Virus record (IMG/VR): IMGVR_UViG_3300028925_004690
Span: 1-46,172 of that record
Direction: 5' to 3' (one strand)
Source: a virus
DNA: 46,172 bases
Below, in pieces: positions 24,397 to 44,028 of this stretch; position 1 is the stretch's first letter; every line of letters starts with the position of its first letter. The notes beneath the pieces were generated by a model that saw only the letters and a program-made list of their open reading frames with translations, was not told the origin of the DNA and did not search any database. Position numbers and translations under genes: made by a program.

Positions 24397-24744
24397 ATGG
24401 CTGAAAAGATGGCCAATCTTCGAGCAAAGAAGAAACCAGCAAAACTATCTAGTATCGATCAAGGTGTATTAGATTTACCAGAAGATCATCCACTATCTTA
24501 TGTTAATGTTAAGAAGTATATCGCAACACAAGAAGGTCTTGTTAAAGTCGGTAAACAACAACAGAATATGAGAAGTGAAAATCAAAAGTTAAAAGATGAG
24601 GGTATGAGAACTAGACTGGATGCTGAGGCATATATTCGCAGTATGAAAAAATATCTAAGTTCAGGTGACTGGACTAGTTTATTCTATGGGGAATATGAAG
24701 ATAAGTTAATAGAATGGAAGGTAGTTGCTACATCATATAAATAA
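24397..24744 (+). CDS. Hypothetical protein
   Basis: 115 residues from ATG 24397, which has GAAGAGG five bases upstream; an in-frame ATG at 24379 has no ribosome site. A basic N-terminus with LPEDHPLSYVNVKKYI is followed by a helical region. The late promoter of the next gene overlaps its 3' end. Function unknown. Confidence 0.6.
   Translation: MAEKMANLRAKKKPAKLSSIDQGVLDLPEDHPLSYVNVKKYIATQEGLVKVGKQQQNMRSENQKLKDEGMRTRLDAEAYIRSMKKYLSSGDWTSLFYGEYEDKLIEWKVVATSYK
24736..24743 (+). promoter_or_regulatory. T4-late promoter box TATAAATA, leaderless geometry
   Basis: A perfect TATAAATA inside the last codons of the preceding gene, five bases before the ATG at 24749. No Shine-Dalgarno sequence is present. 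Confidence 0.75.
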
Positions 24745-35920: not shown

Positions 35921-36817
35921 ATGAGTTCTATTAAAACTATGGTAGGGGCAATCGCTCTTGCTATGGCACTTACTTCTATATCTGTCGCTGAAACTACGGT
36001 GACACTACCAGATGTAAATGCCTCAATATATGGTAAGTTAAATTACATGGCTTACTACAACGAAGATACATCGGGCAACGGTGTATGGAAGTCTGGCAAT
36101 AATGCTTCAAGAATTGGATTAACAATTGAAGAAGCTGGTGATATAAATGCTTTTGGTAAAATCGAAGTTGGCGTAAATGTTGATGACGATTCAAATAACA
36201 CTTTTACATCTAGACTTGCATACTTAGGAGTTGACGGTGGTGATCTTGGCAAACTTAGTGTAGGTCGTCAAAATTCAGTATTTACTGCTGTGACTGGCGC
36301 TACAGATGTTTTCAATGTATATGGTTCTAACGCAGATCAAAACCAAGGTGATAGATTATCTAACACTTTAGTTATATCTAATAGCATTGGACTTGCTAGT
36401 ATTTCTACTCTTATTCAAATGGATGGAACAGACAATACTAAAGACATTGACAAACATGAAATTGCTGCTACATTAAGTGGTGTTTCTGTAGGTTATTCAA
36501 AAGATAACAATACAGACATTAGTTATATGGCAGCGTCTGGATCAATTGATCTAGCCGAACTATCTGTTACTGGTGCATATTCTGTTAAAGATAATGCTGG
36601 TACAGAAACTAAAGGTTATGAAGTTGTTGCCTCAATCGGTAGCATTAACGCAGGATACGGTGAAATCGTAGATGGCGATACTTTCATAACTGCTGGAATA
36701 GATCATCCAATTACTGGTGCTCTTTCTGTTTATGCTGAATATCAGTTAGAACAGAATGATACTGCTGGTGCAAAAGATCAGAATAACTATGCTATAGGTA
36801 CTAAGATAGTATTTTAA
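35921..36817 (+). CDS. Outer-membrane porin
   Basis: 298 residues. A signal peptide (MSSIKTMVGAIALAMALTSI..., cut near SVA|ETT) is followed by repeated amphipathic beta strands typical of Gram-negative general porins. INAFGKIEVGVNVDD, SRLAYLGVDGGDLGKLSVGRQNS, VSVGYSKDNN and the closing strand NNYAIGTKIVF with terminal Phe are all hallmarks of barrels inserted by the BAM complex. It is framed by two terminators and has its own late promoter, a 5' hairpin and AAGGAGAACAAT. Host acquisition is likely. A role in nutrient uptake or in blocking receptors against rival phages is inference. Confidence 0.85.
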   Translation: MSSIKTMVGAIALAMALTSISVAETTVTLPDVNASIYGKLNYMAYYNEDTSGNGVWKSGNNASRIGLTIEEAGDINAFGKIEVGVNVDDDSNNTFTSRLAYLGVDGGDLGKLSVGRQNSVFTAVTGATDVFNVYGSNADQNQGDRLSNTLVISNSIGLASISTLIQMDGTDNTKDIDKHEIAATLSGVSVGYSKDNNTDISYMAASGSIDLAELSVTGAYSVKDNAGTETKGYEVVASIGSINAGYGEIVDGDTFITAGIDHPITGALSVYAEYQLEQNDTAGAKDQNNYAIGTKIVF

Positions 36818-36869: not shown

Positions 36870-36877
36870 TATAAATA
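36870..36877 (+). promoter_or_regulatory. T4-late promoter box TATAAATA, near-leaderless
   Basis: TATAAATA, six bases, then ATG 36884. It directly follows the terminator T run. Confidence 0.75.
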
Positions 36878-36883
36878 GTTATT

Positions 36884-37165
36884 ATGGAACAGTTCTTGAT
36901 TATACTTGCTGAATTTGGTTTACCTGTTGCAGGTTCATTTGCTATGGGTATATTCATTTATATCATTCTTAGATATATTCTAGGTTCGGTTATAGGTCAA
37001 GTTCAAACAATGCACTCAATCATAACTCAATTAGATAATAGAGTCAGAAACATTAACAATGATGTTATAAAGTTAGATTTACTAATCTCACATACTCTAG
37101 GTGTTCCGCCAGACGAAGAAAGAATTGCTCGTGCTGATGGTAAGAAGGATGCAAGGAGAGATTAA
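36884..37165 (+). CDS. Small membrane protein, paralogue of the next gene
   Basis: 93 residues: one N-terminal membrane helix (FGLPVAGSFAMGIFIYIIL) and a cytoplasmic-type helical tail with LDNRVRNINNDVIKLD. The same arrangement occurs in pairs in cyanophages. It aligns with its neighbour over the helix and the NDVIKL segment. No ribosome site, in keeping with a leaderless start. Function unknown. Confidence 0.65.
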   Translation: MEQFLIILAEFGLPVAGSFAMGIFIYIILRYILGSVIGQVQTMHSIITQLDNRVRNINNDVIKLDLLISHTLGVPPDEERIARADGKKDARRD

Positions 37166-37425
37166 TGGATTATTATTTAGTTAGTGTATTACAAGACTAT
37201 GGATTCCCAATGTTCGCAGCTGTGGCAATGGGGTACTTCATATATTTCATATACACTTTTATCACTACTCAAATTAAAGTCAAACTAGGTCAAGCAAATA
37301 CAGTTCTAATCGCATTGATAGATAGAATAAGAATGTTAGATAATGACATTATTCGGTTAAAGTCTAAAGTCAAAACGACAATCGAATTAAAAGAAAACCT
37401 CAAAAAAAGTAAAAACAAAGACTAA
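37165..37425 (+). CDS. Small membrane protein, paralogue of the previous gene
   Basis: 86 residues with one membrane helix (YGFPMFAAVAMGYFIYFIYTF) followed by IDRIRMLDNDIIRLKSK. The shared pattern FGxPxxxxxAMGxFIY and xNDxIxLK shows tandem duplication with the gene before, to which it is coupled by TAATG. Function unknown. Confidence 0.65.
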   Translation: MDYYLVSVLQDYGFPMFAAVAMGYFIYFIYTFITTQIKVKLGQANTVLIALIDRIRMLDNDIIRLKSKVKTTIELKENLKKSKNKD

Positions 37426-37431
37426 CCCAAT

Positions 37432-37439
37432 TATAAATA
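37432..37439 (+). promoter_or_regulatory. T4-late promoter box TATAAATA of the curli cassette, leaderless
   Basis: TATAAATA, then GTAGT and ATG 37445. It is the only promoter I see before the run csgF to cyclase. Confidence 0.8.
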
Positions 37440-37444
37440 GTAGT

Positions 37445-37951
37445 ATGAAAACACTAATCAAACTAGTGTTATTCGGTGCGGCGTTGTTATGGTTATGTGG
37501 GTGGGCATTTGATAACACCATAAAATATGTACAAGCTTCTGAACTTGATTTCCAATTCGGCAATCCAGCGTTTAGTGGCAATGGGTATGGTACCCATGTT
37601 CTAAGTGTAGATCAACTACAAACTCAAAGAAAAAAAGACAAAGAAGATAAAGCAAGATCAGCTGCTTCAGCAGCAAAGCGTGAACTAAACAATACTACAA
37701 TCGCCAAGTTCGTTAAGAATGTTGAGAGTAGAATATATGCTAACTTATCAAAACAGTTAGTTGATAATATGTTTGGTGTTTCTTGTGATAGTTCAACAAC
37801 GACCTGTGCTACAAGTGGTACAGCAGATGTTGAAGGATCAACAATCTATTGGGTTAAAGATGCTACAACAGACAACATTACATTAACAATAACAGATCCT
37901 AACGGCACCGTCAGCACAATGACTGTACCTGTTGGCGACTTTGTATTTTAA
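37445..37951 (+). CDS. csgF: Curli assembly protein CsgF
   Basis: 168 residues. After a signal/anchor segment ending near VQA, ELDFQFGNPAFSGNGYGTHVL is the conserved mature N-terminus of CsgF, the part that inserts into the CsgG pore. The rest has FVKNVESRIYANLSKQLV and a beta-rich end, YWVKDATTDNITLTI...GTVSTMTVPVGDF, matching CsgF's C-terminal half. An extra Lys/Ala-rich helix and a CDSSTTTCATSG loop lie between. CsgF caps the outer-membrane CsgG channel and helps nucleate curli fibres at the surface. Confidence 0.85.
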   Translation: MKTLIKLVLFGAALLWLCGWAFDNTIKYVQASELDFQFGNPAFSGNGYGTHVLSVDQLQTQRKKDKEDKARSAASAAKRELNNTTIAKFVKNVESRIYANLSKQLVDNMFGVSCDSSTTTCATSGTADVEGSTIYWVKDATTDNITLTITDPNGTVSTMTVPVGDFVF

Positions 37952-37961
37952 GGAGAGAGAA

Positions 37962-38309
37962 ATGGACAAGAAAAGTATAGTGCAATATTTTATTTACATA
38001 CCTATCGTTGCTACGGTATTAGGTTTACTTTATACTGGTATCACTACATTTAATAACATACAGACTAATCTAGAACAGTCAACATTACAATTAGAATTAT
38101 TGAAGAAAGACCTCAATCAAATAAGTAGTGAGATCACTAGAACGAAAGAGGATTTTACAAGAGAGTTGACTAGAATGGCGACTGAAATGGCTGAGGCAAG
38201 AGCATACATTGACACTTCTAGAGAAAATGGTTACACAATACAAAATACCGTTAGTCAAAACACATACGATATTAAGGAACTAACAAGACAATTAAATGGA
38301 GGTTGGTAA
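37962..38309 (+). CDS. Membrane coiled-coil protein in the curli cassette
   Basis: 116 residues from ATG 37962 (AAGGAGAGAGAA upstream). One membrane helix (about 9-30, YFIYIPIVATVLGLLYTGI) is followed by a long coiled coil (about 35-85). An in-frame start 30 bases upstream would overlap csgF. Its role is unknown; position suggests an inner-membrane part of the curli machinery. Stop overlaps the next ATG. Confidence 0.6.
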   Translation: MDKKSIVQYFIYIPIVATVLGLLYTGITTFNNIQTNLEQSTLQLELLKKDLNQISSEITRTKEDFTRELTRMATEMAEARAYIDTSRENGYTIQNTVSQNTYDIKELTRQLNGGW

Positions 38310-38749
38310 TGATATTCTTCCGTAGTTTAATAATAAGTGTAATTGCGATATGGTTTATATCTACAATTAATTCACACGCTGCCAATGAATATCTGAATAG
38401 TGGGGGTATGTCTTGCTCTCAAGGTAGTATTGAACCATATGCTGAATGGTCAGAACGAGAAGGAACTAGTGGGTCCTTTTATACAAATAATGGTGACTTA
38501 AACACATTTACATATCCTCAAGGCGAAACAGACGAGTGGCGTGCTGGGGTTAGATTTCGTTGGAACTTAGGTTCATCTTGTAATAAGGTAACAAGAAAGA
38601 TTATGCAAGAGAATGAAATGTTAAAACAAGAGTTAGAACTATTGAAATTATGTGGTAGATATAAGAACTTAGAATTAGGTCCTGAATTTGCTACTGTAAA
38701 AAGAAAGTGTGCTAACATTAAACCGAAAGAACCGCTAGAAGTAAAATGA
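38309..38749 (+). CDS. Small exported protein in the curli cassette
   Basis: 146 residues from ATG 38309 (GGAGGTTGG upstream). Signal peptide (MIFFRSLIISVIAIWFIS... cut near SHA|AN). The mature part is aromatic and Gly-rich with WRAGVRFRWNLGSSC, resembling an outer-membrane beta strand. It then has a helix and four cysteines in total. It takes the place where curli operons often carry csgE, but I see no CsgE motif. It overlaps csgG by four bases. Confidence 0.55.
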   Translation: MIFFRSLIISVIAIWFISTINSHAANEYLNSGGMSCSQGSIEPYAEWSEREGTSGSFYTNNGDLNTFTYPQGETDEWRAGVRFRWNLGSSCNKVTRKIMQENEMLKQELELLKLCGRYKNLELGPEFATVKRKCANIKPKEPLEVK

Positions 38750-39558
38750 GAAACTTTGCTTTATTTCTAGTATTAATGTTAACAGGTTGTGCTACTGTAC
38801 CTGGTGATTATCCCTACAAGGAATCACCACCTAAGGCATATGGTACACCGACAGGTGAGATATTAAATTATTACGATCATTTAGATCAAGAAGTTATTAC
38901 AGTTGCTGTATATCAATTTGCCGATAAGACTGGTCAAAGAAAACCGAGTACAAAGTTTTCACAATTAAGTATGGCAGTTTCTCAAGGTGCAGATGTATGG
39001 GTAATACAAGCACTCAAAGAGACAGGTGATGGTACTTGGTTTAGAGTTGTTGAAAGAGCAAGTTTAGGTAATCTTGTTAAAGAGAGACAACTAATCAGAT
39101 CAACAACCGAGTTATACGATGGATCAGACAAGGGTCAAGCAGTTCTAAAACCTATGTTATTTGCTGGTCTTTTATTTGAAGGTGCGATTGTAGGTTATGA
39201 CGCAAATGTAGAAAGTGGTGGCGATGGTGCAAGATATTTTGGTATAGGCATACACGAAGAATATAGAGTAGATCAGGTAACTGTATCTATGAGAATTGTA
39301 TCAGTACATACAGGTGAAATAATGATTGCTGTATCATCAACAAAATCTATTGCGAGTTTTAAAACTGGTAGAGATGTATTTAAGTTTTTAGATATGGGTA
39401 CAAAGGCATTAGAATTAGAGTCGGGTGCAGCTGTAAACGAACCAGTTAATTATGCATTGAGATCAGCAATAGAACATTGTATATTGCAAATATTAGATGA
39501 GGGTAAAATAAAAGGTCTGTGGAAAACTAAATTAAGACCTCACGGAATAAACGGATAA
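38746..39558 (+). CDS. csgG: Curli secretion channel lipoprotein CsgG
   Basis: 270 residues. Signal peptide with lipobox LTGCAT (Cys15). ITVAVYQFADKTGQRKPS, GADVWVIQALKETGDGTWFRVVERASLGNLVKERQLIR, GIHEEYRVDQVTVSMRIVSVHTGEI and YALRSAIEHCI are the defining blocks of CsgG, whose nonamer forms the outer-membrane pore for curlin export. The length agrees with bacterial CsgG. In the same overlapping run as csgF and curlin-like genes. Confidence 0.92.
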   Translation: MRNFALFLVLMLTGCATVPGDYPYKESPPKAYGTPTGEILNYYDHLDQEVITVAVYQFADKTGQRKPSTKFSQLSMAVSQGADVWVIQALKETGDGTWFRVVERASLGNLVKERQLIRSTTELYDGSDKGQAVLKPMLFAGLLFEGAIVGYDANVESGGDGARYFGIGIHEEYRVDQVTVSMRIVSVHTGEIMIAVSSTKSIASFKTGRDVFKFLDMGTKALELESGAAVNEPVNYALRSAIEHCILQILDEGKIKGLWKTKLRPHGING

Positions 39559-39569
39559 AGGAAAAACAA

Positions 39570-40250
39570 ATGAAGAAAATTTTAAGTATTGTTATGTTTA
39601 TGATGTTTAGTACAGCGTATGCAAATGATATTTACATCACGCAATCAGGTGCTAGTTTAGACTTAGATATATTACAAGACGGAGAGAATAACACAATAGG
39701 TAATTCTACAACCGTGTCTAGTGTTATAGGTGCAACGACTAACTTTAATATCAAACAAATTGGTAATGCCAATGTTATCACCTTTGATATTAATGGTGCC
39801 AACTACACAGGTACTTGGGATATAACAGGTAACTCAAACAACATTGACTTTAATTGTGATAGTGGTGCTTCTAACTCAAGTTGTGCTACTGCTACTGCAA
39901 ATATAACATGGACAGGTAGTTCACAAAATATTGATTTAGATATCGGTGAGACTGCTTCTGCTTCAAGTGCTACAGTTAATATAACTGGTGCGTCTGGTTC
40001 TGATTCAAATGTTATTGCTGCTACGATAGATGGTAACTCTGCTATTCTAACACTTACAGTTAATGGCGATTCAAATAATTACTTAATTGATATTGATGGT
40101 AATGGTGACTCAGTTGGTCATACATTAATTCACACTCATACAGGAGATACAGCAGATGTAGACATTGTACAATCTGGTACAAATGATAATATGTTAAATC
40201 TAACTACTGTAGGAAACAGCCACGATATTGATATAACTCAACGAGACTAA
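39570..40250 (+). CDS. Curlin-repeat fibre protein (CsgA/CsgB-like)
   Basis: 226 residues. A signal peptide (MKKILSIVMFMMFSTAYA) is followed by imperfect curlin-type repeats with spaced Gln, Gly and Asn: ITQSGASLDLDILQDGENN, FNIKQIGNANVITFDI, DIVQSGTNDNM, DIDITQRD. The strand-turn pattern rich in Asn, Ser and Thr is that of the secreted amyloid subunits CsgA and CsgB. Its most likely route out is the CsgG-CsgF channel encoded just upstream. The centre is more degenerate, with a CDSGASNSSC pair. AAAGGAAAAACAA is the ribosome site. Confidence 0.75.
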   Translation: MKKILSIVMFMMFSTAYANDIYITQSGASLDLDILQDGENNTIGNSTTVSSVIGATTNFNIKQIGNANVITFDINGANYTGTWDITGNSNNIDFNCDSGASNSSCATATANITWTGSSQNIDLDIGETASASSATVNITGASGSDSNVIAATIDGNSAILTLTVNGDSNNYLIDIDGNGDSVGHTLIHTHTGDTADVDIVQSGTNDNMLNLTTVGNSHDIDITQRD

Positions 40251-41350
40251 TGAAACTTTTTGTAATATTACTTCTTCTTGCAAGTGTAAGTAATTCTTAT
40301 GCAAGTATAGGAGAGGTGATATTGCATGAAGGCAATGGCGTCATTGAAAGAAAATCAAACGGCGAAGAAGTCACTTCACAAATAGACGAAGAAGTCTTTT
40401 CATACGACACAATCAAAACAGGTAAAGGTAAAACAGCAATAGAGTTTATTGATATGACTCGTGTTGATGTTACCGAACACTCTAAACTTATCATTGATGA
40501 ATTTGTTTACGACCCTAATACTAAGACAGGTAAACTATCACTCAAAGCAGGACTAGGTACAATCAGATATGCCTCTGGTCAAATTGCAAAAACTAGTCCA
40601 ACAAGTGTAACGATAACAACACCTACTGCTACAATAGGTGTTCGTGGTACAGACTTTTCTATGACTGTAGATGAGATAGGAAGTTCTACAATCATTCTAT
40701 TACCAAGTTGTGATACAAGTGGTAACTGTTATGTTGGCGAGATATCAGTAGAGTCAGACGCAGGTCAAGTCATACTCAATCAAGCATTTCAGGCAACAGT
40801 TGTTGATACGATTTCTAGTTCGCCTATGAAACCTGTCATCTTAGGTTTAGATGAAAATATGATTGGTAATTTATTGATTATATCTAGACCAGCTGAGATA
40901 ACTAAAGAATTAGAGAGATCAGAATATATACAAGTTGCTAGTGCTCTTGACTTAGACTTTCTACAATTTGATGATTTAGAAATTGACTATCTAGAAGAAG
41001 ATGAAAGCGCTTGGGCAACAGCACTTGATATAGATTTTCTAGAGCAAGATTTCTTAGGTGACATTCTCAAACAATTAAATGACCAGTTAGCAAAACGAAT
41101 GAGAAGTGAGTTCGATAAAAAGAGATCGGGTGATGGTGTGGTCACAGGTAAAGATGAAGCAACAGGTATTATCATACTAAATGAAGAACCGCAATGGTTA
41201 GTGATACGAGAAACAGAATCAAACTACTTTGAACTAAGACTGGATCAAGAGTATGGATACAATATAAATATAGTGCAAGGCGATGATGAAATTTACGATT
41301 ACGAAATAGGAGGAAATGTCAATGAGATTAATATTATACAGTCTAATTAG
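40250..41350 (+). CDS. FecR-domain exported protein with curlin-like C-terminal tail
   Basis: 366 residues. Signal peptide (cut near SYA|SIG). The FecR domain runs from about 20 to 140, with the hallmark TPTATIGVRGTDFSM at 124-138. A linker with repeated ALDLDFL/ALDIDFL units follows (about 224-262). The last 30 residues (NINIVQGDDE... and NEINIIQSN) look like curlin repeats. It is probably periplasmic. FecR proteins are often paired with CHASE2 cyclases, one of which is encoded two genes on. The start overlaps the curlin gene stop. Confidence 0.75.
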   Translation: MKLFVILLLLASVSNSYASIGEVILHEGNGVIERKSNGEEVTSQIDEEVFSYDTIKTGKGKTAIEFIDMTRVDVTEHSKLIIDEFVYDPNTKTGKLSLKAGLGTIRYASGQIAKTSPTSVTITTPTATIGVRGTDFSMTVDEIGSSTIILLPSCDTSGNCYVGEISVESDAGQVILNQAFQATVVDTISSSPMKPVILGLDENMIGNLLIISRPAEITKELERSEYIQVASALDLDFLQFDDLEIDYLEEDESAWATALDIDFLEQDFLGDILKQLNDQLAKRMRSEFDKKRSGDGVVTGKDEATGIIILNEEPQWLVIRETESNYFELRLDQEYGYNINIVQGDDEIYDYEIGGNVNEINIIQSN

Positions 41351-41672
41351 TTTAGCAGTAGTATTTTTTATATTTACTGTACATATCAGTTATGCAAACG
41401 ATTTTAATTTAACTATTGTTACTAGTAATAATGGTGACCTTGATGTTCTACAAGATGGCGAAGATAACGACATTGATTTTGATGTACAAAGAATGAATGG
41501 TTTTGATATAGATTTAACACAAGTTGGTGATGACAATACTATTGATGTAGATGTTGATGGCAGAACGAGTAATGGTTCTTCAATGGCAATCACACAAACA
41601 GGAGATAATAAAAGTTATAGTGGCACTTTCTATTGTGGTCATTCTTCCTGTTCTATGACCGTAAACCAGTAA
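41322..41672 (+). CDS. Second curlin-like fibre protein
   Basis: 116 residues from ATG 41322, which has AGGAGG eight bases upstream; the ATG at 41316 is too close to it. Signal peptide to about ISYA. Repeats DLDVLQDGEDNDIDFDVQ, DIDLTQVGDDNTIDVDV and MAITQTGDNKSY carry the curlin Gln-x-Gly-x-x-Asn pattern. It could be the nucleator (CsgB-like) or a minor subunit to the larger curlin protein. It overlaps the FecR gene by 29 bases and the cyclase by one. Confidence 0.7.
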   Translation: MRLILYSLISLAVVFFIFTVHISYANDFNLTIVTSNNGDLDVLQDGEDNDIDFDVQRMNGFDIDLTQVGDDNTIDVDVDGRTSNGSSMAITQTGDNKSYSGTFYCGHSSCSMTVNQ

Positions 41673-43507
41673 TGAAAAAGATATTCACTCACTGGACGAT
41701 AGGTCTATTAACACTAGCAATACTTACCTTTATTGGGTTGAACGACCCATACCTCAAACAAATACTAAGACTCAAGTCATTTGATTACCTTCATCAATTT
41801 GAAACAAAAGAAATATCACCTGATATAGGTGTGGTAACAATAGATGAATTGTCTATTGAGAAGCATGGTCAATGGCCGTGGGATAGAAGAATACTTGCTG
41901 ACCTCGTACTCAAACTTAGAGAGGCACAAGTAGGTATTATTGTCATGCCGATACTCTTTTCTGAATATGATAGAATGGGTGGTGATGAAGAATTTATCAA
42001 TACAATAAATCAAATGGGTGTAGTAGTTGCACAGGTAGGTACAACACAAATTAATAAGAATGCTGTACCGAGAGGTGTTGCAAAGATAGGTGACCCACTA
42101 CCTTGGTTGTATGAATGGCCTGGTATGTTAGGACCAATCAAAGAGATTGGTGAATATGCAGATGGTGTTGGTGTTATCAATACGGCACCAGAGATAGATG
42201 GTGTTGTCAGACGAGTGCCTTTGATTATGAGAATTGGTGATGAAACATATCCTGCGATTGCTTTAGAAACTATAAGAGTGGCGACTGGCGATCCTAGTTA
42301 TCAGATTAAGGCGGGCGAAGGGGGAGTAATTGCTGTAAGGGTACCTGGTTACGATACAATCGCTACTGACGCACACGCAAGAATATGGTTAAGATGGAAT
42401 AAAGAGTTCGATACCATATCAGCAAGTGAAGAAGACTTTTCCGAATTCGCAGGTCGTACTGTTATTATCGGTATAACTGCCGAAGGATTGAATAGTATTA
42501 TTGCAACACCATTAGGGGAAATGCACGACTATATACTATCTGCTTCGACTTTACAGACGGTATTAGACGGAGATCAAATCAACAGGTACGATTATAGTCT
42601 ATTCCTAGAATTGATTATTTCAGTAGTTCTAGGCGTCTTAATTGTACTACTTGCAAGATTTACACCGTACTGGTTTATCGGCTTGACAATAGTATTATCT
42701 TATGTTATACTCGTATTTACTTCATATTATTTGTTTACCGAATACCTTATTCTCGCAGATGTAAGTTGGTCCATTATTTGCTTGACAATAGTAGGTATGC
42801 ATAGTATATTCAATCGGTTCGTTTTAGAGTTTCAATTGAAACAACAAATAAGAAAACAATTTGAAACATATCTAGACCCAAGACAAGTGGCAATATTACA
42901 GAAAGATCCAAGTAAACTAAAACTCGGTGGTGACAGACGAGAGATGAGTTTCTTGTTTATGGACATTATAGGGTTTACACCTATTTCAGAATACTACAAA
43001 AACAAAGATGATCCTGAAGGACTCGTAGAACTTGTTAATGAGTTTCTAGATGATATGACTAAAATATTACTCAACAATGGTGCCATGATTGATAAGTTTA
43101 TGGGTGACTGTATCATGGCAGTATTTAATGCACCGATTGATATGGAAGATCACGCAGAGATGGCAGTCAAGAGTGCTATGGAAATAGAAGCAAAGACAAA
43201 AGAACTCAAGGCATTATATAAAGAACGAGGACTACCTGATATCAATGTCGGAACAGGTGTGAACACAGGTACAGCAATCATTGGTAACATGGGTAGTTCA
43301 AATCGTTTTGACTATTCAGTTATAGGTGACGCAGTTAATCTGGCTGCGAGACTAGAGGCAACTGCTGGTCGAGGTGATTATAAAGATTGCCCAACATTAT
43401 ATTCAAGTTACACTCAAGAAAAACTCAAGAATATCAAGTCAGTTGAAGTAGATAAGATCAAAGTTAAAGGTAAGGAAGAGTTAATCACAATCTTCAAACC
43501 ATTATAA
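41672..43507 (+). CDS. CHASE2-domain adenylate cyclase
   Basis: 611 residues from ATG 41672 (overlaps the previous stop). An N-terminal membrane helix is followed by a periplasmic CHASE2 sensor (about 35-300, with GVVTIDELSIEKHGQWPWDRRILADLV and YADGVGVINTAPEIDGVVRRVPL). Three membrane helices (about 305-385) come next, then a class III cyclase domain. Asp431 in FMDIIGF and Asp479 in KFMGD bind metal. Lys475 and the DYSVIGDAVNLAARLE block mark ATP as substrate. It should make cAMP in the infected cell in response to an envelope signal, perhaps through the FecR protein. Confidence 0.85.
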   Translation: MKKIFTHWTIGLLTLAILTFIGLNDPYLKQILRLKSFDYLHQFETKEISPDIGVVTIDELSIEKHGQWPWDRRILADLVLKLREAQVGIIVMPILFSEYDRMGGDEEFINTINQMGVVVAQVGTTQINKNAVPRGVAKIGDPLPWLYEWPGMLGPIKEIGEYADGVGVINTAPEIDGVVRRVPLIMRIGDETYPAIALETIRVATGDPSYQIKAGEGGVIAVRVPGYDTIATDAHARIWLRWNKEFDTISASEEDFSEFAGRTVIIGITAEGLNSIIATPLGEMHDYILSASTLQTVLDGDQINRYDYSLFLELIISVVLGVLIVLLARFTPYWFIGLTIVLSYVILVFTSYYLFTEYLILADVSWSIICLTIVGMHSIFNRFVLEFQLKQQIRKQFETYLDPRQVAILQKDPSKLKLGGDRREMSFLFMDIIGFTPISEYYKNKDDPEGLVELVNEFLDDMTKILLNNGAMIDKFMGDCIMAVFNAPIDMEDHAEMAVKSAMEIEAKTKELKALYKERGLPDINVGTGVNTGTAIIGNMGSSNRFDYSVIGDAVNLAARLEATAGRGDYKDCPTLYSSYTQEKLKNIKSVEVDKIKVKGKEELITIFKPL

Positions 43508-43510
43508 ATA
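43503..43510 (+). promoter_or_regulatory. T4-late promoter box TATAAATA, leaderless
   Basis: The box overlaps the stop of the cyclase gene and lies five bases before ATG 43516. It starts the tail-gene unit. Confidence 0.75.
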
Positions 43511-43515
43511 GTAAT

Positions 43516-44028
43516 ATGGCAAAGACTGTATTTGATAGAATTTTAGACAAGGCAACTGCACCTAAGTCATTTGACTGGTATAGAAAACAGGTCAAAGATA
43601 TGACTACACCTGGTGCAAAGTCTTTAATAACAAGAGGTAAAGCGACATTACGACCTAAGTATGGTATGATGAACTTGTTTGGATATGATGCTAAACACAA
43701 AGCAACATTACCTTATTATGATAAGTTTCCATTGATATTTCCAATAGAACCTGCAAAGGGTGGTTTCATTGGTATTAATTTTCATTATTTACCCTTTGGT
43801 GCAAGAGTAGCATTCCTAAAACAACTATCACAGTATGCCACAGATGAGAATTTTGATAACAAAACAAGATATAATTTAGATTGGGTTAATAACTCTTTCT
43901 ATAGAAAGACAACAAAACGATACTTGAATAGTCAAGTTAGAACATCATTTTTAAACATACCAGCAAATGAAATGGCGGTTGCAATATTTTTACCAGTCGC
44001 AAGATTTGTAGGTGGGAGACCTTACTAA
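43516..44028 (+). CDS. Conserved marine T4-like virion/assembly protein
   Basis: 170 residues. YGMMNLFGYDAKHKATLPYYDKFPLIFP, then GGFIGINFHYLPFGARVAFLKQL and a final FLPVARF match a protein found next to baseplate genes in all marine T4-like phages I can recall. Its assignment varies between databases and I give none. Starts leaderless from the late box. Coupled to the next gene by TAATG. Confidence 0.75.
   Translation: MAKTVFDRILDKATAPKSFDWYRKQVKDMTTPGAKSLITRGKATLRPKYGMMNLFGYDAKHKATLPYYDKFPLIFPIEPAKGGFIGINFHYLPFGARVAFLKQLSQYATDENFDNKTRYNLDWVNNSFYRKTTKRYLNSQVRTSFLNIPANEMAVAIFLPVARFVGGRPY

Follow-up and report, generated by a model that had tools for sequence, protein, structure and literature searches.

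A conserved curli-type cassette in a marine T4-like phage, with a FecR-domain protein as candidate fibre anchor

We describe a gene cassette in a stretch of viral DNA of 46,172 nucleotides (IMG/VR record IMGVR_UViG_3300028925_004690, positions 1 to 46,172, hereafter called the window), in which ten plus-strand genes, overlapping or separated by short gaps, occupy positions 36884-43507 in the order mcc1, mcc2, csgF, mcc3, a small exported gene, csgG, cur1, fecR, cur2 and a CHASE2 cyclase gene. Judged from its sequence, the cassette is real and conserved and probably works as a curli-type secretion system, and we lean, by a modest amount, towards a late, FecR-anchored adhesive fibre system of the alphaproteobacterial (type VIII) kind. 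The source phage is T4-like and marine: the window also encodes a primase, a ribonucleotide reductase, an SSB, a DNA end protector and a tail tube protein, and the nearest isolate over the cassette, by DNA, is the Pelagibacter phage HTVC008M (70% identity across 57% of the query). An earlier note on this DNA had proposed a curli cassette of eight same-strand genes at 37445-43507; all eight were confirmed, with overlaps or gaps of at most 12 nt, and starts were corrected, relative to the longest open reading frames (ORFs), for mcc3 (37962), the exported gene (38309) and the cyclase gene (41672, overlapping the cur2 stop).

Both parts of the CsgG-CsgF export channel, named in the earlier note, were recovered by profile search. 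The csgG gene (38746-39558, +) encodes an outer-membrane lipoprotein channel, which scores 5e-48 in Pfam, above the cut-off, and aligns almost end to end with the E. coli CsgG structures (PDB, 3e-47); its lipobox cysteine (C15, within LTGC) is invariant in all 18 aligned phages. The product of csgF (37445-37951, +) is also above the Pfam cut-off (E 6e-13) and matches phrog_35372 at 3e-59; no CsgF chain was matched when the window protein was compared with PDB by phmmer. In E. coli, CsgF inserts an N-terminal F-x-NP-x-F peptide at the mouth of CsgG, lining the CsgG barrel. The mature N-terminus of the phage CsgF, ELDFQFGNPAFSGNGY, retains this peptide, and the motif is found in relatives as well. 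Likeness to the E. coli curli genes (csgBAC/csgDEFG) covers the lipoprotein channel, the CsgF with its N-terminal peptide and, probably, the exported Gln/Asn repeat subunits; in contrast to E. coli, the phage cassette features no detected CsgE or clear CsgB, and a FecR-domain protein and a CHASE2 cyclase are added. A csgD gene was not seen in the window, no separate search for it having been made.

The cassette encodes two exported curlin-like proteins: cur1 (39570-40250, +), of 226 amino acids (aa), terminating in IDITQRD, and cur2 (41316-41672, +), a minimal 118-aa form with a C-terminal Cys pair and the ending MTVNQ. Their identification as curlin-like, already put forward in the earlier note, held up through their relatives, the window proteins themselves lying below the curlin cut-offs. 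Curlin_rpt matches were found in 10 of 30 cur1 proteins of relatives (best 8e-5), and several relatives in the cur2 slot exceed the Pfam cut-off for this family, the best at 1.3e-11. Within the window proteins, phi-x-phi-x-Q motifs occur in excess over shuffled sequences (P 0.002 for cur1, 0.009 for cur2); this excess, together with the relatives above the Pfam cut-off, rules out chance Gln/Asn composition as the cause of the curlin signal. The AlphaFold2 model of cur1 is all-beta, with a predicted local distance difference test (pLDDT) of 86.8.

In the slot between fecR and the cyclase gene lies a curlin-like protein whose C-terminal Cys pair is conserved and whose front varies. Among 65 distinct cur2-slot proteins, selected by this Cys pair, the front is PA14-like in 9 and ThuA/Rossmann-like in 16, the remainder being mostly repeat-only. 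PA14 is recognized by Pfam at 4e-10 in one locus (L043) and at 3e-6 in HTVC008M, while the ThuA match of another (L036), at 5e-4, is below the cut-off. The cur2 of the window is of the shortest type and has no N-terminal domain, in contrast to its PA14-bearing counterpart in HTVC008M. Swapping of front domains on this subunit suggests the display of a binding head. Two loci (L032 and L033) carry in the same slot another, different N-terminal domain, without a Pfam match.

The FecR-domain protein (40250-41350, +), predicted as such in the earlier note, matches Pfam FecR at 2e-9, above the cut-off. It is composed of a signal peptide, a FecR beta domain (residues 21-190), a linker modelled with low confidence and a six-stranded C-terminal part (residues 307-364). 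Its sole hydrophobic stretch, residues 3-21, is that of the signal peptide, and neither a cytoplasmic anti-sigma N-domain nor a second transmembrane segment is present. Because it has a signal peptide and no further hydrophobic stretch, the protein differs in build from the anti-sigma FecR of the inner membrane, and identity as a Fec-type regulator was rejected, the N-terminal anti-sigma part being lacking. Near its end the protein reads INIVQGDDEIYDYEIGGNVNEINIIQ, a curlin-like repeat. Of 91 distinct FecR relatives, 82 carry both IxIxQ arms right at the C-terminal end; this arrangement is seen in 12 of 1205 unrelated ORFs from these loci and in 1.5% of tails after shuffling. The last Gln of the tail is invariant in 35 aligned sequences, and in the AlphaFold2 model the six strands at 307-364 follow each other with a rung spacing of about 20-22 aa.

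Structural comparison of the FecR model by Foldseek returned the FecR/PupR (FecR/CCSSD) fold, with matches to the anti-sigma regulators PupR and BDI_1681, and also a "cell surface anchoring domain", PDB 5ix9 (62 columns, rmsd 1.0 A, 27% identity, TM-score 0.74 relative to the target), part of an antifreeze protein, MpAFP of Marinomonas. The same entry is the top sequence match of the protein, a weak one (E 0.095, profile positions 20-90). About 60 residues superpose on this adhesin domain; its phage counterpart is coupled with a FecR fold and curlin-like rungs instead of an RTX adhesin. A BFVD search with the protein returned two phage FecR proteins only. Given the signal peptide, the curlin-repeat-like C-terminus and the match to an anchoring domain, the FecR protein seems more likely to anchor or nucleate the fibre than to act as an iron regulator.

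The last gene of the cassette (41672-43507, +) encodes a class III adenylate cyclase of 611 aa, in agreement with the earlier note: CHASE2 (1e-41) and the cyclase domain (2e-19) are both above the Pfam cut-offs, and the protein combines CHASE2 and transmembrane segments with two metal-binding Asp, the Lys/Asp purine pair and the Asn and Arg of the class. All six catalytic positions (D431, K475, D479, D553, N556 and R560) are kept in the window; five of them are invariant in 61 of 61 sequences, while N556 is replaced by Ser in 18. PADLOC matches to PycC were put down to the shared cyclase domain.

The putative late promoter TATAAATA is not over-represented in the window (10 observed, 8.3 expected), but its placement is conserved. 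One copy (37432-37439, +) lies exactly 5 nt before the csgF ATG, a spacing shared by 48 of 93 distinct upstream sequences, whereas it is seen at 0 of 97 csgG starts and at none of the mcc2 starts. A second copy (36870-36877, +) stands 6 nt before the mcc1 ATG. A third (43503-43510, +), arranged as TATAAATA-N5-ATG, precedes the DNA end protector gene at 43516 and marks the end of the module; the 5-nt spacing before this gene recurs in 13 of 13 cases. The same spacing before an ORF is found in the window at 24736 (+) and 32080 (-) too. In HTVC008M, 5 of 21 sites lie at this distance from an ORF of at least 40 codons, while a 49-kb stretch of T4 contains 18 sites, 13 of them followed by an ORF start at 13-49 nt and not one by a start within 12 nt. 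If the start position equals that of T4 late starts, the A of the csgF AUG would be +1. Leaderless starts are likely to be part of the late-gene architecture of this phage group, and are absent from the T4 stretch tested; the leaderless promoter proposed in the earlier note gains support by position.

A set of 155 loci, mostly from IMG/VR, was compared, and the order mcc1-mcc2-csgF-csgG-cur1-fecR-cur2-cyclase recurs across them. Of the loci, 47 have non-identical csgG and sufficient flanks; all 47 contain both csgF and fecR, 45 contain the cyclase gene, 41 have a detected curlin gene immediately downstream of csgG, and 40 contain the mcc pair. The conserved module begins upstream of csgF, with mcc1 (36884-37165, +; 93 aa, phrog_18771) and mcc2 (37165-37425, +; 86 aa, no Pfam match), each with one predicted transmembrane segment and a coiled coil; in some loci the pair lies on the opposite strand or is split around csgF. 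The membership drawn in the earlier note was right in part: its coiled-coil and exported genes are present, but fall outside the conserved set, to which the upstream mcc1-mcc2 belong. The two genes outside the set, mcc3 (37962-38309, +; a transmembrane segment and a long periplasmic coiled coil) and the small exported gene inserted together with it (38309-38749, +), occur only in the window and near-identical contigs, and were rejected as core parts for this reason. They resemble gp13 and gp14, neighbouring genes of the pelagipodovirus HTVC027P, located three genes upstream of an M15 peptidase.

As a kind, the cassette is already known. CsgF and CsgG were reported in 2020, with a "sibling capture" proposal (PMC7029224); a lysis role was proposed in the 2022 study of Melnitz (PMC9004378); and the full set of CsgF, CsgG, two CsgA/B, FecR and cyclase was described in 2022 in pelagiphage myo- and podoviruses, where the genes are expressed in ocean metatranscriptomes (PMC9599517). 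The genomes of HTVC008M (KC465899) and Melnitz (MZ577097) carry the same csgF-csgG-curlin-FecR-curlin-cyclase order preceded by two short genes; the window, unlike them, has the mcc3 and exported pair between csgF and csgG. The expectation of the earlier note that a full set with fibre subunits, FecR and a cyclase would be new is not supported. The third of these reports places a "histidine kinase" upstream of csgF; from their position, mcc1 and mcc2 would be the genes meant. Neither they nor two relatives match HisKA/HATPase or any other kinase family in Pfam, and a kinase identity was rejected on this ground.

Since 2020, phages with curli genes have been known from abundant bacteria of the SAR11/OM43 type, and in no paper that we found are roles assigned to FecR, cur2 or the cyclase: fibre roles for the three are not described in the three reports, nor are FecR as an anchor, swappable cur2 fronts, leaderless late starts or a Hyphomonas counterpart. 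In PMC9599517, neither PA14 nor promoters nor Hyphomonas was found to be mentioned. A literature search, which mostly did not extend to subscription journals, gave no paper that brings together curli, FecR and CHASE2.

A bacterial counterpart was found among 80 loci returned by a GTDB scan with the CsgG alignment. In Hyphomonas sp. TMED17, a csgF-csgG-curlin-FecR-cyclase operon lies on a 705-kb contig, flanked by bacterial genes; set and order are the same as in the phages, with one large curlin (504 aa) and without mcc genes. According to PMC9599517, bacterial type VIII secretion operons lack FecR and cyclase, a statement that this operon qualifies. In the tree the Hyphomonas CsgG falls on the phage side (support 98/82), and its long branch fits either a lineage that donated the genes or a transfer from phage to host. 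This FecR is present in 1 of 105 genomes of the Hyphomonas family; in a FecR-profile search of genomes of the class and phylum, the other hits that were checked are FecR domains with neither csg nor cyclase genes in the brief stretches fetched. Five other GTDB loci (L156, L157, L158, L160 and L173) are phage-like cassette contigs in metagenome-assembled genomes labelled Pelagibacter, Pirellulales, Flavobacteriales, Sphingobacteriales and Rhodobacteraceae, and are probably misbinned or infected-cell DNA.

The tail motif, the domain swapping and the anchoring-domain match lead to a testable fibre model made of anchor, shaft and head. Late transcription would begin at or beside the csgF AUG, a second late promoter driving mcc1-mcc2. 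By homology with E. coli curli, the CsgG lipoprotein would form the outer-membrane channel, with the CsgF N-terminal peptide inserted at its mouth. The main secreted subunit would be cur1; cur2, a second one, may in many relatives display a PA14 or Rossmann-like domain, missing in the window. The FecR protein would be exported and either stand in for CsgB or serve as the fibre foot: its FecR part may stay in the periplasm or in the channel, like an adhesin anchoring domain, and its curlin-like rungs may dock to cur1. The cyclase would sense the state of the envelope, perhaps the loaded FecR or the fibre, and produce cyclic AMP (cAMP) for a host target. The infected cell could thereby acquire an adhesive coat holding neighbours, debris or polysaccharide, or blocking competing phages. 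Of this picture, the sequence shows the gene identities, their conserved order, where the promoter lies, the active-site residues, the tail motif and the swapping of domains; fibre formation, anchoring by FecR, coupling to the cyclase and any benefit are inferred. If fibres form, these phages could aggregate or coat planktonic cells, affecting encounter rates, recombination and sinking. A more specific version, which we consider doubtful, is that of an anchored, sensing amyloid adhesin installed before lysis, in which the FecR foot, of a sort not known from other curli, would template the fibre, the cyclase would read fibre load through cAMP, and cur2 would bear an exchangeable binding head.

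Several observations weigh against an anchored fibre system. In the window, cur2 reaches only E 0.019 with Curlin_rpt and 2e-4 with the NCBIfam CsgA model, both below curated cut-offs, and cur1 has no curlin match in profile search, so that the identity of both rests on their relatives; Foldseek found no firm structural relative for the cur1 model, the CsgA fibril ranking low (E 0.70). The FecR tail counts span related sequences and are not independent, the FecR model has a mean pLDDT of 73.8, and the Hyphomonas FecR tail is without the Gln pattern. Comparison of the FecR tail with the phage curlin units by profile gave P 2e-4 and a probability of 46%, and a Pfam scan of isolated tails found no curlin repeat; on these two results, homology of the tail to the curlin repeat is suggested, short of proof. 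CsgE was not detected in the window, as the earlier note had stated, and the complete genomes of HTVC008M and Melnitz gave no match either; according to PMC9599517, alphaproteobacterial curli operons lack CsgE. Any target of the cAMP would need to lie in the host, these phages having yielded no cyclic nucleotide-binding protein. Finally, Melnitz cultures showed no clumping (PMC9004378).

This last result would fit a fibre coat that mainly excludes superinfecting phages or protects the infected cell, rather than capturing new hosts, a tentative alternative on which we would not rely. Such a role is suggested, among others, in PMC9599517, and the same phages encode porins; however, the adhesin-type PA14 domains in the cur2 slot suggest binding to the outside, and a late promoter would act late for shutting out other phages. 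We consider it unlikely that the CsgG-CsgF pore serves in lysis or depolarisation as a gated, pinholin-like device, with the fibre genes as passengers. This was proposed for Melnitz from CsgG/CsgF modelling and synteny (PMC9004378), and may draw on the tiny transmembrane coiled-coil proteins mcc1 and mcc2, which travel with the cassette, and on the likeness of the mcc3 and exported pair to podovirus genes near a peptidase. Curlins, FecR and cyclase nevertheless remain with csgFG across wide divergence, and a bare pore would need neither the kept CsgF channel peptide nor the swapping of cur2 domains.

Still less probable is the reading of PMC9599517 in which FecR is an iron-dependent regulator, controlling expression of the cassette together with the cyclase and a histidine kinase: the Pfam match and the fold shared with PupR and BDI_1681 agree with it, but the protein is exported in design, without a cytoplasmic anti-sigma part, its C-terminus is curlin-like, and neither mcc1 nor mcc2 matches a kinase. 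Least of all do we expect CsgG-CsgF to be an open channel through which a transporter-poor host takes up large nutrients (cofactors, siderophores), as proposed in PMC7029224 and PMC9599517 and compatible with the missing CsgE gate, since curlins, FecR tail, CsgF and late timing would be left unexplained.

A few further features accompany the cassette. The mcc3 and exported pair, also present in podovirus HTVC027P, is a case of genes exchanged across phage families, here inserted midway along the cassette. Extra cargo, such as ferredoxin-like and short conserved proteins, is found between fecR and the cyclase gene in seven loci (L017, L018, L019, L057, L127, L141 and L151). An Rfam search of the window detected tRNA only. 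At 35921-36817 the window encodes a full-length Gram-negative porin (Porin_4, 2e-17), lying directly upstream of the cassette in close relatives; its sole match among phage records is the "outer membrane porin" of HTVC008M, with 36% identity.

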